A stretch of DNA of 64,000 bases from the NCBI GenBank assembly GCA_016281315.1, contig JAEEIJ010000056.1:182661-246660 (forward strand), given 5' to 3'. Below the pieces are notes generated by a model that did no database searches, had not been told where the DNA came from, and saw nothing but the letters and a program-made list of their open reading frames with translations. The translations under genes were made by a program, and so were the position numbers. The DNA comes from Bacteroidales bacterium (lineage in GTDB: Bacteria > Bacteroidota > Bacteroidia > Bacteroidales > UBA932). Positions 6,218 through 57,138 of the stretch are shown in pieces. Position 1 is the stretch's first letter. The number at the start of each line of letters is the position of its first letter.

Positions 6218-7177
6218 TCACACAAATTTCGTCCATCCCGATGAATTTTCCAAATCTTTCTGCTTTTTAAGGCCAAGGGCGCGGCAGACCTCTTCCCGTG
6301 ACAGGGAGAAAACCCTTGCAAGTTGATGTACGGTTGTTTTTCTGGTTCGATGGATGTAGGTAAGAAGCCGGTATTTCCTTTCTTTTGTCAGGTCGGCCAT
6401 CCCCTGGGAAAACCAGCGGAGAGCCGTTTCGGAAACCACTTTATAGAGTTCGCTGTCGGGTAGTATCTTCCTTGGCGCTTCCACCAGTTTTTCCTCCATT
6501 TCCGCCGGGTTCAGCGCACCGATGGTTTTCAGCCAGAATGCCTGGTCGTGGTTGAAAGCCTGTTCCAGGTAGTCGGAGTCACAAAAGGTTTCGGGCATCA
6601 GATCTCCGTCTGTATCTATGAGCCAGGAGACGTCTTTAAGCGAATCACGGGTGTGCATAATCCGGTCCTGTTCACGCCGGGTAAACTTGCACACGGGAAG
6701 CCCGGACAGTTTTTTTGCTTTATCGGAAAACATAGCCCGGTAGCCGCTCCACTTGTAAGTGTCTACGGCAAATCCATTGTCAATAGCATTGCGCGGAATG
6801 TATGCGAGGGCGTTTCTGACGTACCATTCCGAATCCAGCAGAAGTGCTTGCACGTCTGTATCCTTGAGGATATGCTTCTCAAAATATTTGATTTGGAACC
6901 ATTGGGCATAGGTCCGCTTCAGTTCGTCGGCGTAATCACAGGCCTCCTGATAAGTGGCGGACAGCACGGCGACGTGGCAATGATTGGAGTTGACTTCATA
7001 AATAATGACGATTACGTTCTTGCGCTTGGCACAGATGGCAATGTATTTGACAAGGACGCCGTAATCTTCATTGTCCCTACAGAGAAGGGCCGCCGAGAGA
7101 CCCTTCATACAAACGTGGTAGGGGTGAACGCTTTTCGTTTTCCCCGAAGGGAGTTTTCTTGTTACGGATAGGAGCAT
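6218..7177 (-). CDS. REP-associated tyrosine transposase-like (Y1/IS200-type HUH) protein with C-terminal HTH
   Basis: NHCHVAV (H-x-H) and YVRNALAYIPRNAIDNGFAVDTYKWSGY, matching the RAYT Y..NP.RAG....Y.WSSY pattern; adjacent palindromic repeats. Confidence 0.8.
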   Translation of the reverse strand: MLLSVTRKLPSGKTKSVHPYHVCMKGLSAALLCRDNEDYGVLVKYIAICAKRKNVIVIIYEVNSNHCHVAVLSATYQEACDYADELKRTYAQWFQIKYFEKHILKDTDVQALLLDSEWYVRNALAYIPRNAIDNGFAVDTYKWSGYRAMFSDKAKKLSGLPVCKFTRREQDRIMHTRDSLKDVSWLIDTDGDLMPETFCDSDYLEQAFNHDQAFWLKTIGALNPAEMEEKLVEAPRKILPDSELYKVVSETALRWFSQGMADLTKERKYRLLTYIHRTRKTTVHQLARVFSLSREEVCRALGLKKQKDLENSSGWTKFV

Positions 7178-7206
7178 ATTGTTTTTGTTTATGGGTTGTC
7201 TTGTTT

Positions 7207-7384
7207 TGGACCTGGTCCAGAGCGATAATGGACGAGGTGTGGTTAATAATTGGACGAGGTTCGTTTAAATGTGCTGGACCAGGTCCAGCGGGTGTGGCTC
7301 TCAGATGGCTGGAAGGCCGATGTGGTGGACCAGGTCCAGGGGGTGGAATCGAACCTCGTCCAAAAAGTGCCTGGACCTGGTCCA
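7207..7384. repeat. REP-like cluster: four TGGACC[T/A]GGTCCA palindromes plus TGGACGAGGT motifs
   Basis: Copies at 7207-7219, 7275-7287, 7326-7338, 7372-7384; TTGGACGAGGTTCG (7250-7263) is the exact inverse of CGAACCTCGTCCAA (7350-7363); further TGGACGAGGT at 7229-7238. Confidence 0.85.
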
Positions 7385-10560: not shown

Positions 10561-10638
10561 TGGCGGGAAGGGGGGCGCTCCCTCGGTCGCGAAAAAGAAG
10601 GCCGATGCTCCCTGCGGGAGCGCCCAGCCCTTCCGCCA
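10561..10638. repeat. Palindromic element, short type (intergenic)
   Basis: Arms TGGCGGGAAGGGGGGCGCTCCC (10561-10582) / GGGAGCGCCCAGCCCTTCCGCCA (10616-10638); core CCCTCGGTCGCGAAAAAGAAGGCCGATGCTCCCT nearly identical to the core in polA. Confidence 0.75.
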
Positions 10639-19514: not shown

Positions 19515-20445
19515 GGCCGCCCAACTGGTCCGCGACTGGATGCTGCCCGCCGCCCTGCTGCTGGGCGTGGGCCTTTACCTGGGTTATCATTCGCTCCCGG
19601 CCCTGCACTCGCAGGGATATTGGCTGCATCCCTTTGTGTCCGTGGGACAGCGGGTGGGCATCGCCCTGCTGCTGTTTTTCCAGTTCGTGAAAGTTTCTCC
19701 CCACGACCTGAGGCCCAGCAAGTGGCACGCCGGGGCGCTGGCGCTGCAAATGGGCTGTTTCCTCGCGCTGGCCCTCGTGATCCGGCATCTTTCGCCGGGC
19801 GTGGGCAGGATGCTCCTCGAATGTGCGATGATCTGTCTTATTTGCCCCACGGCATCGGCCGCCGGGGTGATTACGGACCGCCTGGGAGGCAACCTGGCCG
19901 CCACCGTTACCTACCTGGTGATGATCAATGTGGCGGGAACCTTCCTCATTCCGCTTGTTATTCCGTTGGTGAACCCTTCCGAAAGCCTGGGGTTCTGGAC
20001 CTATGTGGGGCATATCGCCATCCGGGTGTTCCCGGTACTTATCCTGCCGGGACTGGTGGCCTGGCTCATCCGTTACACCTGCCCGCGCCTCCAGCGCCGC
20101 CTGATGCGCTGGGCCGGCAATGCTTTCTACATCTGGGGCGTCTGCCTCACGATGGCGATGACCCTGGCCACCCGCGCGCTGGTGCTCAGCGGCCTGGGCC
20201 TGGCGGCCGTCGGGGGGATCGTGGCCGTCTCCCTGGCCTGCTGCGCCTTCCAGTTCGCCGCCGGCCGCCGCATCGGGGGACAGACCGCCGGCCAGGCCCT
20301 GGGCCAGAAGAACACGGGCTTTCTCATCTGGCTGGGCTACAGTTATTTAACCCCCGTCACTTCCGTGGCCGGGGGACTATATGCCATCTGGCAGAATCTA
20401 TTTAACTCCTGGGAACTCTACCGCAAGGAGCATCCGCGCGTCTGA
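19507..20445 (+). CDS. Bile acid:sodium symporter (SBF)-like transporter
   Basis: Multi-TM with ECAMICLICPTASAAGVITDRLGGNLAATVTYLVMINV. Confidence 0.65.
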   Translation: MNKAAQLVRDWMLPAALLLGVGLYLGYHSLPALHSQGYWLHPFVSVGQRVGIALLLFFQFVKVSPHDLRPSKWHAGALALQMGCFLALALVIRHLSPGVGRMLLECAMICLICPTASAAGVITDRLGGNLAATVTYLVMINVAGTFLIPLVIPLVNPSESLGFWTYVGHIAIRVFPVLILPGLVAWLIRYTCPRLQRRLMRWAGNAFYIWGVCLTMAMTLATRALVLSGLGLAAVGGIVAVSLACCAFQFAAGRRIGGQTAGQALGQKNTGFLIWLGYSYLTPVTSVAGGLYAIWQNLFNSWELYRKEHPRV

Positions 20446-20587
20446 CGCCAGGCGCAGGCACACAGCGCCGAATCGTCGCTTCGCGACCCCTCCCATCCAT
20501 CGGCGCAAAGCGCCTCCGTGGGCCCCTCCCTCTTACGTGGCCGAGGGTGGCCACGGATTCGGACGCTGTGCACCTGCCCCTGCCGTC
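20444..20587 (-). repeat. Palindromic element, long type (intergenic, starts at the stop codon of the SBF-like gene)
   Basis: Arms 20444-20474 / 20556-20587 (near-perfect inverted repeat); core contains GTCGCTTCGCGACCCCTCCC and GGGCCCCTCCCTCTTA, shared with the 42938-43050 element. Confidence 0.85.
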
Positions 20588-30207: not shown

Positions 30208-32877
30208 TCAGTGGGCTTCCAGCCAGTTGGCTCCGGCGCTGCAGTCCACCGTGAGGGGGACCGATAGCTTGATAACATTTTCCATCACTTCTTTCACCAG
30301 GCGGGAAAGGGCGGGCACTTCCTCCGGCAGGGCGTCGAAGAGCAGTTCGTCGTGGATCTGCAGGACCATCTTGCTGCGCAGGCCTTCTTCCTTCAGCCGG
30401 GCGGCGACGCCGATCATCGCGAGTTTGATGATATCGGCCGATGTCCCCTGGATGGGCGCATTCACCGCATTCCGTTCCGCCAGGGCGCGGACGGTGGCGT
30501 TCCGGGCCGATATGTCCGGGAGGTACCGGCGCCGGCCGAAGAGGGTCTCCACATAGCCGTTTTCCCGCGCGAAGGCGATGCTGTCGTCGATGAAGCTGCG
30601 GATGGCGGGGAAGGAGGCGAAGTAGCCTTCGATGAGTTCCTTGGCGGCGCTGCGGGAGAGATGCAGCCGTTGCGCGAGGCCGAAGGAGGAGATGCCATAC
30701 ATAATGCCGAAGTTGGCGGTCTTGGCCATCGTGCGTTGCTCACGCGTGACTGCCTCCACCGGAACGCGGAAGATCTTGGCAGCCGTGGCGGCGTGGACGT
30801 CCACCCCGTCGCGGAAAGCCTGCACCAGGTGCGCGTCGCAGCTCAGATGGGCCATAATGCGCAGTTCAATCTGGGAATAGTCGGCGCTCACGATCACACC
30901 CTCCGGCGTGCCGGGCACGAAAGCCTTGCGGATTTCCTTGCCGCGCTCGGTGCGTACGGGGATGTTCTGCAGGTTGGGGTTCGAACTGGAGAGCCTGCCG
31001 GTAGCTGTGAGCGCTTGGTTGAACGTGGTGTGCACGCGGCCGTCCCGCTCGGAAATGTAGCCGGGGAAAGGCTCGATATAGGTGGAGAGCAGTTTTTTCA
31101 CTGCCCGGAATTCCAGGATTTCATCCACGATGGGATGGCGGTCGGCGATGGCGAGGAGCGTGGCTTCGTCCGTGGAATACTGTCCTTTAGCCCCGCCCTT
31201 CTTGGCTTTCGGGTCCAGTTTCAGTTTGTCGAAGAGCAGGTCTCCTACCTGCTTGGGGGAGGAGATGTTCAGCTCCGGTTCCCCGGCGAGGCTGCGGATG
31301 CGGGCTTCGCGCTCGGAGAGTTCTCGGCGTAGCCCGTCGGCAAACACTTTCAGCTGTGAGAGGTCCACCTTCACGCCGTCGCGCTCCATCCGGGCGAGGA
31401 CCTTCGCCAGCGGTTCCTCCATCTGGTCGTAGAAGGCCGGAAGTTCTTCCCGCAGTTTGTCGCCCAAAGGAATCAGGATGGCGGCTTCCAGCAGGTTCGG
31501 GGTATCCTCTTCCTCGGGTGCTTCGTCAAAGAGCGAGCCCGTGGTGGCGGTTTCCGGGGCCGATGCTTCCAGATTGACGCCCAGATAGTACTGGGCAAGC
31601 GCCGGCAGCTCGTGGCTTCGCTCGGGATTCAGCACGTAGTGCATCAGCTGGATGTCCCACCAGTGGCCGTTCAGGGCGATGCTTTCCTCGGCGAGGCGGC
31701 CCCAGGCCCGTTTAAGGTCCGTACCGTATTTCGCCACGGCTTCGTCTTCCAGGATGGATTCGGCCTGGCTGAGCGGCATTTTGGCAACTTTGCCGTCCGA
31801 GGATAGCAAAATGGCGTTTCCGCTGAGAATCAATCCTACTTTTCCGCTCTTTTCAGCCGCCTCTATCACTTCTTCCGCCGGAGACAGTTTGTCCGGCGTG
31901 GGAATTGTTTCCGCTGCGGGGGTGCCGCGCCCTTCGGTCGCTGAAAAGAAGGCCGATGCTCCCTCAGGGGCGGCAGCCCCCGCAGCGGAAACCGGCGCCG
32001 CAGCCGCAAGATGGCCGTCCAGGTATTTGCGGAGCGAGGCGAATTCGTAAAAACTGAACAGTTCCGCCAATTTGGGCTGGAACTGCCCGGTATAACGCAT
32101 CTCTTCCAGACCGACCGGAAGATGCATATCCGTCCTGATGGTCACAAGGGCCTTGGAAAGGGCTATATGGGGCTGGGCTTCCCGGAACTGTTCCTGCTGG
32201 CGGGGAGAGAGTTCCTCCAGATGGGCGTAGATATTCTCCACGCTGCCGTATTTGGCGATGAGCTTGGCGGCGCCCACTTCTCCTACGCCTTTCACGCCGG
32301 GAACGTTGTCGGCGGTGTCGCCGCAGATAGCCAGCATATCAACGACCTGCGCAGGAGACGAGATGCCCCATTTTTCGCACAGGGAGGCGGCGGTGACGAG
32401 TTCGGCTTCGGCCCCGCTCTTGCCGGGTTTGAGCTGGAAGGCGTGCGGGCCGATGAGCTGCCCGTAATCCTTGTCCGGGGTCACCATATAGACGTCCAGT
32501 TTGTCGGAGGCGAACTGCGTGGCGGCCGATCCCAATACGTCATCGGCCTCGAAACCCATTACCATCAGCACCGGAATGTTCATCGCCTGCACCAGCTCCG
32601 TGAGCGGCTGCAGGGAATCGATGATGAGCTGCGGGGTAGGGGGACGCGTCCCTTTGTAGGCGGGGTACATCTCATTGCGGAACGTCCCGCCCGGCGGATC
32701 GAAGGCCACGGCGATGTGCGTGGGCTGCTCCCGCTCGATCATCTCCAGCAGGTACTTCGTGAACCCGTAGAGGATGGACATATCGGCCCCCTTGGCGTTG
32801 ATCATCGGCCTGCGCAGGAAGGCGTAGTACATCTTGAACACCAGAGCGTGCCCGTCTATGAGGAAGAGTTTATCCAT
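30208..32877 (-). CDS. polA: DNA polymerase I
   Basis: MDKLFLIDGHALVFKMYYAF, ATGRLSSSNPNLQNIPVRTERGKEIRKAFVP, DYSQIELRIMAHLS, QIHDELLFD. Confidence 0.96.
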   Translation of the reverse strand: MDKLFLIDGHALVFKMYYAFLRRPMINAKGADMSILYGFTKYLLEMIEREQPTHIAVAFDPPGGTFRNEMYPAYKGTRPPTPQLIIDSLQPLTELVQAMNIPVLMVMGFEADDVLGSAATQFASDKLDVYMVTPDKDYGQLIGPHAFQLKPGKSGAEAELVTAASLCEKWGISSPAQVVDMLAICGDTADNVPGVKGVGEVGAAKLIAKYGSVENIYAHLEELSPRQQEQFREAQPHIALSKALVTIRTDMHLPVGLEEMRYTGQFQPKLAELFSFYEFASLRKYLDGHLAAAAPVSAAGAAAPEGASAFFSATEGRGTPAAETIPTPDKLSPAEEVIEAAEKSGKVGLILSGNAILLSSDGKVAKMPLSQAESILEDEAVAKYGTDLKRAWGRLAEESIALNGHWWDIQLMHYVLNPERSHELPALAQYYLGVNLEASAPETATTGSLFDEAPEEEDTPNLLEAAILIPLGDKLREELPAFYDQMEEPLAKVLARMERDGVKVDLSQLKVFADGLRRELSEREARIRSLAGEPELNISSPKQVGDLLFDKLKLDPKAKKGGAKGQYSTDEATLLAIADRHPIVDEILEFRAVKKLLSTYIEPFPGYISERDGRVHTTFNQALTATGRLSSSNPNLQNIPVRTERGKEIRKAFVPGTPEGVIVSADYSQIELRIMAHLSCDAHLVQAFRDGVDVHAATAAKIFRVPVEAVTREQRTMAKTANFGIMYGISSFGLAQRLHLSRSAAKELIEGYFASFPAIRSFIDDSIAFARENGYVETLFGRRRYLPDISARNATVRALAERNAVNAPIQGTSADIIKLAMIGVAARLKEEGLRSKMVLQIHDELLFDALPEEVPALSRLVKEVMENVIKLSVPLTVDCSAGANWLEAH
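31907..31992. repeat. Palindromic element, short type, inside polA coding sequence
   Basis: Arms GTTTCCGCTGCGGGGGTGCCGC (31907-31928) / GCGGCAGCCCCCGCAGCGGAAAC (31970-31992); core CCCTTCGGTCGCTGAAAAGAAGGCCGATGCTCCCT as at 10580-10613. Confidence 0.8.
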
Positions 32878-55922: not shown

Positions 55923-56239
55923 TGGAAGAGGGGAAAAAGGACCGGTGGGCGTGGCTCAAACGGAAGGACCACAATTATCTGCTGCCGTTCGTGATCGTGG
56001 TCACGCTGGTGGTGGCGCTGTGGCTGCTTTTCTTCGCCCACAACAGCGTTCTGAGCTGGATCAAAGCTTCCGTGGAGGAAAAGGCCCAGAAGGCGGAAAT
56101 GGCCCGTCTTCAGGCCGAGATTGACGAGATGGAGCGGGAAACCCAGGCGCTCAGGAACAATCCGGATTCGCTGGAGACCTTCGCACGGGAGACCTATCAC
56201 TTTGCCGCGCCCGGCGACGAAGTGTACATCGTGGAATAG
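55922..56239 (+). CDS. FtsB/DivIC-type septum formation protein
   Basis: Single TM followed by coiled coil and ...ARETYHFAAPGDEVYIVE. Confidence 0.82.
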   Translation: MEEGKKDRWAWLKRKDHNYLLPFVIVVTLVVALWLLFFAHNSVLSWIKASVEEKAQKAEMARLQAEIDEMERETQALRNNPDSLETFARETYHFAAPGDEVYIVE

Positions 56240-57138
56240 AGGCGCGCGGTAGTCACGGCTTCTTTCACGTCGTGTACCCGGAGCCAGCGGGCTCCTTTCT
56301 CCATCGCCTGAAACTGAATGATCTGCGTAGCGGGCATCGCCTCTTCGGGGGTGATGCCCAGCGCTTTATAGACCATACTTTTGCGGGATACCCCCACCAG
56401 GACTTCCCGGTCCGGGAAAGCCCGTACCACTTCACCCAGCCGGTGAAGCAGTTCATAGTTCTGGTCCAGGGTTTTGGAAAAGCCGAATCCGGGATCCGGA
56501 AGCCAGGTTTCAATTCCGGCGTCCTCCGCTTTCCTGGCGAATTCGTTGAAATAATCGATGACAGAAGCCACCACGTCGTCGTAGTCCGTCAGGCTCTGCA
56601 TCGTTTCGGGCGTTCCCCGCATATGCATCGCAATGTACGGCAGCCCCAGCCGCCCCACCGTGGACAGCATATCCGGATCCAGCTGACCGCCGCTGATGTC
56701 GTTCACGATGAACGGGCCGATGAGATCGTACGCCCTCCGGACGATTTCCGACCGGTAAGTATCGATGGAGATGACGGGACACTCCCTCCCGGGGGCTTGT
56801 CCACCCCCGGACAAGTATAGGGGGAGGGGCCCACAGCCAGGGCCCGAAGGGCACGGCGCAATGGGAGGGGCCGAAGGAGCGTCAGCGACTGAGTCCCCCG
56901 GGAGGGAGTGTCCCGCCATCTCCTTCAGCACCGGCTCCAATCGGGCCCATTCTTCTTCCAGAGAGGGCTGGACGGATCCGGGGCGGGTGGAACAGGCTCC
57001 GAGGTCCACGGCATCGGCCCCGTCGGAGAGCATCTGACGGATGCGGGAAACGGCTTCATCGGCCTTTACCCGGCTCCCGGCATAGAAGGAGTCCGGCGTC
57101 AGGTTCACGATCCCCAGGATATGGATGTTTCCTACCAT
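56197..57138 (-). CDS. folP: Dihydropteroate synthase (with in-frame palindromic insertion)
   Basis: MVGNIHILGIVNLTPDSFYAGSRV, DLGACSTRPGS, SIDTYRSEIVRRAYDLIGPFIVNDISGG. Confidence 0.93.
   Translation of the reverse strand: MVGNIHILGIVNLTPDSFYAGSRVKADEAVSRIRQMLSDGADAVDLGACSTRPGSVQPSLEEEWARLEPVLKEMAGHSLPGDSVADAPSAPPIAPCPSGPGCGPLPLYLSGGGQAPGRECPVISIDTYRSEIVRRAYDLIGPFIVNDISGGQLDPDMLSTVGRLGLPYIAMHMRGTPETMQSLTDYDDVVASVIDYFNEFARKAEDAGIETWLPDPGFGFSKTLDQNYELLHRLGEVVRAFPDREVLVGVSRKSMVYKALGITPEEAMPATQIIQFQAMEKGARWLRVHDVKEAVTTARLYSTMYTSSPGAAK
56775..56915 (+). repeat. Palindromic element, long type, inside folP
   Basis: Perfect 21-bp inverted repeat CGGGACACTCCCTCCCGGGGG (56775-56795) / CCCCCGGGAGGGAGTGTCCCG (56895-56915); encodes GDSVADAPSAPPIAPCPSGPGCGPLPLYLSGGGQAPG. 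Confidence 0.92.

Follow-up and report, generated by a model that had tools for sequence, protein, structure and literature searches.

The window analyzed here, a stretch of 64,000 nucleotides from a 2.1-Mb draft genome (G000, the own genome below), carries folP, the gene for dihydropteroate synthase (DHPS), which is interrupted by a palindromic insert without loss of the reading frame (Table 1). The perfect 21-bp inverted repeat described in an earlier note was recovered at 56775-56795 and 56895-56915 with 99 bp between its arms. With mismatches allowed the repeat is longer, reaching 29 nt with a single mismatch (56767-56923) and 94% at 32 nt (56764-56926), while the chance expectation for perfect 21-mers with spacers of up to 200 nt in the window is only about 6e-6. 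The element as a whole matched the covariance model (CM) of the family described below with 84.8 bits (E 4e-21). On the minus strand the FolP frame runs through the palindrome without a stop codon and contains the peptide that the same note had quoted.

Table 1. Features of the folP element and of the two related elements in the window.
Feature	Position	Strand	Basis
folP (dihydropteroate synthase), 313 aa, in-frame insert, start codon inferred	56200..57138	-	Pfam, PDB
Codons of FolP residues 78-118, predicted disordered loop	56785..56907	-	AlphaFold2 pLDDT
Whole folP element, core-sense strand opposite to folP	56764..56926	+	inverted repeat; CM match; BLAST
folP left arm, 29 nt, inner 21 nt perfect	56767..56795	+	
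P2 hairpin CTTGTCC-ACCCCC-GGACAAG	56796..56815	+	stem covaries in 49 copies
P2 loop CCCCC, 5' side of proposed pseudoknot	56804..56808	+	complementarity to downstream 5-mer
GGGGG, 3' side of proposed pseudoknot	56820..56824	+	complementarity to P2 loop
P3 stem, CCC..GGG base, upper part variable	56830..56865	+	covariation
AGGGGCC block and P4-like GA-rich hairpin region	56866..56894	+	conserved block in alignment A1
folP right arm, 29 nt, one mismatch vs left-arm complement	56895..56923	+	
Second element, in frame inside DHH/DHHA1 phosphoesterase gene (42409-43512, minus)	42936..43052	+	arms, CM
Third element, core only, intergenic, just past gene ending at 20445	20469..20561	-	CM 42.7 bits, E 1.9e-9

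The identity of the protein was supported by Pfam (Pterin_bind, 1.2e-58) and by a PDB match to DHPS. Residues 4-75 and 123-302 matched residues 14-86 and 93-270 of E. coli DHPS (PDB 1aj0), so that 47 residues stand where the E. coli enzyme has 6, an excess of about 41. The distance from the DxGACS motif to SIDTY was likewise 84 residues here compared to 41-44 in FolP orthologues of the genus without the insert. An AlphaFold2 model built on an 11-sequence alignment gave a mostly confident barrel, with pLDDT values below 50 only at residues 78-118 and 311-313, and the insert joined the helix at 60-76 to the strand at 122-126. Helix-to-strand loops of a TIM barrel face away from the active site, and on this general anatomy the modeled loop is inferred to lie on the non-catalytic face. 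A long loop next to the SIDTYR strand had been flagged as unusual for this enzyme; the insertion itself was confirmed, but the concern is weaker than it had seemed, as predicted disorder was confined to one helix-strand connection and the last three residues. Among folP orthologues we found either a homologous palindromic insert or none, and not the shared non-palindromic loop that would have refuted the idea of an insertion.

The folP element belongs to a repetitive, dispersed family. The own genome contains about 30 copies, with 22 BLAST matches to the folP element (two of which are its own arms matching one another) and 27 to 32 matches to the CM. Three copies lie within the window, namely the one in folP, one in a DHH/DHHA1 phosphoesterase gene and one in an intergenic region; the second of these has 29-nt arms that are 97% complementary, scored 34.9 bits with the CM and is bordered by the Pfam DHH and DHHA1 domains on either side. 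In a sample of the genus the CM detected the element in 47 of 61 genomes at 0 to 34 copies each, and several near-complete genomes had none. An order-wide CM search of 98 genomes comprised the own genome (the sole match), one further member of the genus and 96 genomes from other families of the order, in none of which a CM match was obtained. An exact pattern scan of GTDB genomes returned at least 115 loci, and the matches listed were all titled Bacteroidales, Bacteroidia or Bacteroidaceae, mostly metagenome-assembled genomes (MAGs) from rumen and gut. All genomes were drafts or MAGs, one per species. We regard the element as specific to a genus of gut and rumen Bacteroidales, perhaps Candidatus Cryptobacteroides, and the family as previously unreported, given that the open-access literature searched (which excludes most subscription journals) yielded no account of elements of this kind in Bacteroidales.

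Copies were found both between and within genes. At least 43 copies were in frame and stop-free, that is, 43 of the 126 unique copies with enough flanking sequence had an open frame and coding flanks on both sides. This count relies on a simple codon score, with thresholds chosen once the output of a stricter earlier version was known, and it includes several sites that are orthologous to one another in different species. The core was oriented with the host gene in 23 cases and against it in 20, and each direction made use of more than one reading frame. Based on Pfam, the host genes encode TruA, TruB, MurB, MurE, MnmA, an MtaB-type protein, TrmB, RsmA and TilS as well as a SpoU methylase, an NrnA-like DHH protein, an M20 peptidase, an aminotransferase, MatE and others. 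Each host protein apparently acquires a floppy loop; PLPLYLSGGGQAP and PPPDKYRGRGP are examples of the insert peptides predicted (for FolP, TruA or TruB). In the folP copy of genome G050 (L043) an extra insert of about 60 bp was present within the core and the frame was still open.

Most full copies measured 140-185 bp. The core accounts for about 95-135 bp and each of the inverted-repeat arms that border it for about 16-30 bp. The arms vary from site to site and have only a short inner block in common, yet within each copy they remain largely complementary. Over 2001 bp in 91 non-redundant arm pairs there were 37 mismatches, and 62 pairs were perfect; the resulting complementarity of about 98% is biased upward because copies were chosen for having matching arms. 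Partial or imperfect copies do exist, and the clearly imperfect arms in G016 indicate that matching is not always maintained. Comparison of orthologous sites revealed 137 compensatory changes in arm pairs versus 63 that were one-sided or broken (17 comparisons, which share sequences and are thus not independent). We also considered that arms might be inverted copies of the host target made at insertion, as had been suggested by own-genome copies whose cores are nearly identical but whose arms differ. As a general rule this was rejected, since in G049 seven copies with identical or near-identical cores, which are recent, occupied at least four distinct contexts and kept common arms (GGAAGGGATACCCTCCA or near variants), indicating that arms travel with the element. 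The intergenic regions holding the G049 copies L244-L250 were crowded with other short repeat families, and the element was nested inside some of these.

Orthologous sites were found filled, empty, flipped and exchanged. The folP site was occupied in the own genome, G049, G031, G050 and several species known from rumen MAGs, and empty in G040 and in distant species, as was the trmH site in L096; the empty sites were too diverged to define the ends of the element or a target-site duplication. Each of the sites in folP, truA, truB, trmH and murB was found with the core in either orientation. The truA loci L189 and L206 have flanks that are 95% and arms that are 96% identical, while their cores (133 and 97 bp) are only 69% identical and lie in opposite orientations; by alignment, the core has been exchanged here and the arms have been kept. 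The folP loci L148 and L169 exhibited a different pattern, in which flanks of 89-90% identity enclose a core that is 98% identical but flipped, and the arms are only 54-64% identical with changes on both sides. The folP arms of L130, L148 and L160 were identical (flank identity 89-98%), while about half of the arm sequence differed in L169. The cores that occupy six sites of the own genome (truA, murE, murB, truB and trmH account for five) were 84-99% identical to each other, compared to 69-96% identity between the own copy and the core at the same site in other species. Judging from these comparisons, cores tend to follow the genome and arms the site. In two contigs of G005 (C156 and C74) the folP fragments stop at the insertion site, which suggests that the repeat breaks the assembly.

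Taken as a whole, the folP palindrome is quite likely a copy of a genus-specific, MITE-like selfish mobile element that works in the manner of the Rickettsia palindromic elements (RPEs), is translated as a disordered loop and has its arms converted. The suggestion in the earlier note of a selfish insertion tolerated by the protein thus gained support from the repetitive and dispersed nature of the element, its presence or absence at orthologous sites and its in-frame residence in numerous conserved genes. The author of the note could not have seen that the element forms a family spread across the genus, that its core is structured and is found flipped and swapped, or that its arms evolve in concert. 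From the open frames and the conservation of the host genes, and without transcript or protein data, we infer that the host ribosome translates a copy as a disordered loop rich in Pro, Gly and Ser, which would allow the element to escape purifying selection. The arms could form a hairpin at which replication or repair switches template, a step inferred from the behavior of the arms and not observed; since such switching or conversion would copy changes from one arm to the other and sometimes invert the core, arm-to-arm conversion is probably what keeps the arms matched and flips the core. Gene conversion between copies or re-insertion would spread successful cores and may account for the core swaps, and new insertions would carry their arms along. 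Small plastid inversions, in which loops between short inverted repeats flip at hairpins, offer a parallel, although we know of no mobile conserved core in these and of none inside conserved reading frames. Template switching has also been proposed for the upkeep of the coding palindromes in nematomorph mitochondria (PMC6649704).

The alternative that remains most serious is that each species gained its own copy by independent insertion at hot spots, in which case neither inversion in place nor arm conversion would be needed. We consider this possible, though on present evidence unlikely. It stays in contention because arm change looks bursty, as in the folP arms that are shared by three loci and half replaced in L169; the empty folP site in G040 and trmH site in L096 fit it as well, and sites of the Rickettsia elements RPE-4/6/7 hold different groups in orthologues, for which hot spots were considered too (PMC3767692). 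A fresh insertion should, however, bring its own arms, as seen in G049, and the truA pair L189/L206 combines nearly identical arms and flanks with different, opposite cores. Arms at one site also remain partly alignable across species and display compensatory changes.

The core itself has the features of a structured nucleic acid. Its stems P1, P2 and P3 covary, with double changes in 13 of 22 pairs among 49 copies, and the P2 loop has its exact reverse complement in a downstream 5-mer, a G-run, in 103 of the 110 distinct sequences (variants CCCCC/GGGGG, CCCTC/GAGGG, CCCGC/GCGGG and TCCGC/GCGGA). We read this pairing as a putative pseudoknot. The core-sense RNA folded better than shuffled sequences (z -1.95 and -2.16) and the antisense core did not (z -0.33 and +0.48), and among mismatches between the arms, read on the core-sense strand, G.U was more frequent than A.C (19 vs 7, p = 0.03). 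Sense-only folding, the G.U bias and the covariation together indicate that the core strand probably functions in the form of RNA or of single-stranded DNA. Short solo hairpin forms were observed at L011, L021 and L101; at least the one at L021 can be explained by a deletion between two CCCCCGGAC repeats located in P2 and the right arm.

These properties would also be expected if the core were a functional structured RNA with a regulatory or processing role useful to the cell or the element, and the arms a stem under ordinary compensatory selection. The covarying stems and pseudoknot, the strand-specific folding and the G.U excess all speak for such a role, and the latter could mean that selection on RNA pairing rather than templated conversion keeps the arms matched. 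We nevertheless find a functional RNA rather improbable, given that within genes the core is antisense to the mRNA about half of the time, several near-complete genomes of the genus lack the element and the many host genes are scattered without evident common regulation. A cmscan of nine element loci against Rfam 15 produced no match to the element; all hits were tRNAs apart from two chance matches below threshold.

A more elaborate version of the mobile-element interpretation, which we put forward only as speculation that may well be wrong, views the element as a two-part selfish cassette. Site-bound arms would evolve jointly through conversion templated by the hairpin, and the core with its pseudoknot would flip and move from one arm pair to another, mobilized by a dedicated system that is guided by the core RNA or specific for the hairpin. 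Residence in essential genes would then follow from the cassette being readable in both directions.

Inverted repeats around a core that can face either way at a given site could also point to a DNA-inversion switch, with a site-specific recombinase flipping the core between the arms to produce two protein variants. This is very unlikely, as the arms vary by site and share no recombinase site beyond the short inner block, and cores were swapped as well as flipped. Removal of the insert from RNA by self-splicing, or its bypass by the ribosome as with the mitochondrial byp elements, would suit a structured, pseudoknotted core but is barely credible, because copies of both orientations persist in genes, open and in frame, which would be needless if they were removed.

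The mobile-element interpretation calls for a mobilizing enzyme encoded elsewhere, which was not identified. A reverse transcriptase was rejected, as five of six high-copy genomes lacked PF00078 and three of seven zero-copy genomes contained it. A Y1 transposase was found in all six high-copy and two of seven zero-copy genomes (p = 0.02, confounded by relatedness), and as a linked mobilizer this enzyme (RAYT) was rejected as well, since neither the four RAYT loci that were inspected nor the RAYT of the window had a core nearby. Among the loci compared, which do not cover whole genomes, there was no autonomous copy in which an ORF splits the core, and the exact core pattern, a strict test for carriage by phages, was absent from viral contigs.

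Of the known systems, RPEs (Ogata et al. 2000; reviewed in PMC2229807, see also PMC3767692) and the palindromic elements of Wolbachia come closest. They are palindromic repeats of about 100-150 bp with terminal inverted repeats, which reside in intergenic regions and also in frame within conserved genes, where orthologues share the insertion sites and the repeats encode solvent-exposed segments (PMC2229807, PMC3767692). The Bacteroidales element meets the corresponding criteria, being a palindromic repeat with terminal inverted repeats that has in-frame copies in conserved genes alongside intergenic ones. It differs in the phylum of its hosts, in the flipping and exchange of its core at fixed sites and in its covarying pseudoknot, and while the inverted repeats of RPEs reportedly lose identity with time (PMC6649704), its arms stay mostly matched as they diverge. 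All copies found were from Bacteroidales and a single genus (Rickettsiales were covered only by the exact pattern scan, which listed at least 115 loci). By analogy, the element appears to work like an RPE, but we do not file it as one since the host group differs, and no homology is claimed.

Prokaryotic MITEs (Correia/NEMIS, ERIC, RUP and YPAL) are likewise short, non-autonomous, repeated and bounded by terminal inverted repeats, and some have open frames fused to genes (PMC2229807). The terminal inverted repeats and the recent dispersal of near-identical copies in G049 satisfy this description, but neither a target-site duplication nor a parent transposase has been established for the Bacteroidales element, and its arms vary by copy. 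The mitochondrial coding palindromes of Nematomorpha are near-perfect inverted repeats kept inside coding genes, and PMC6649704 does not describe them as dispersed copies that share a conserved core. REP/BIME sequences associated with RAYT (Y1) transposases are also bacterial palindromic repeats (PMC3733652), and RAYT-like genes are present in high-copy genomes of the genus; the RAYTs considered here are, however, not adjacent to the element, and the RAYT-like gene in the window has palindromes of its own. The element has thus not been shown to belong to any named family.

Protein-coding palindromic repeats have been known mainly from Rickettsia and Wolbachia, and gut and rumen Bacteroidales now add another case, which is very active and apparently unrelated. 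With many species offering filled, flipped, swapped and empty sites, the movement of such repeats, their tolerance by proteins and the matching of their arms become testable. Insert loops in proteins predicted from MAGs, an enzyme that is a drug target among them, may represent selfish DNA and not adaptation, and assemblies can break at such repeats, as illustrated by folP in G005.

Two further repeats were observed in the window. A RAYT-like Y1_Tnp protein frame with a weak Pfam match (6218-7264, minus strand) is accompanied by TGGACC-GGTCCA palindromes (7207-7384), a repeat family separate from the folP element. In addition, a 39-nt direct repeat (CCCTCGGTCGCGAAAAAGAAGGCCGATGCTCCCTGCGGG) is present at 10580-10618 and 31931-31969, with 87% identity between its two copies.
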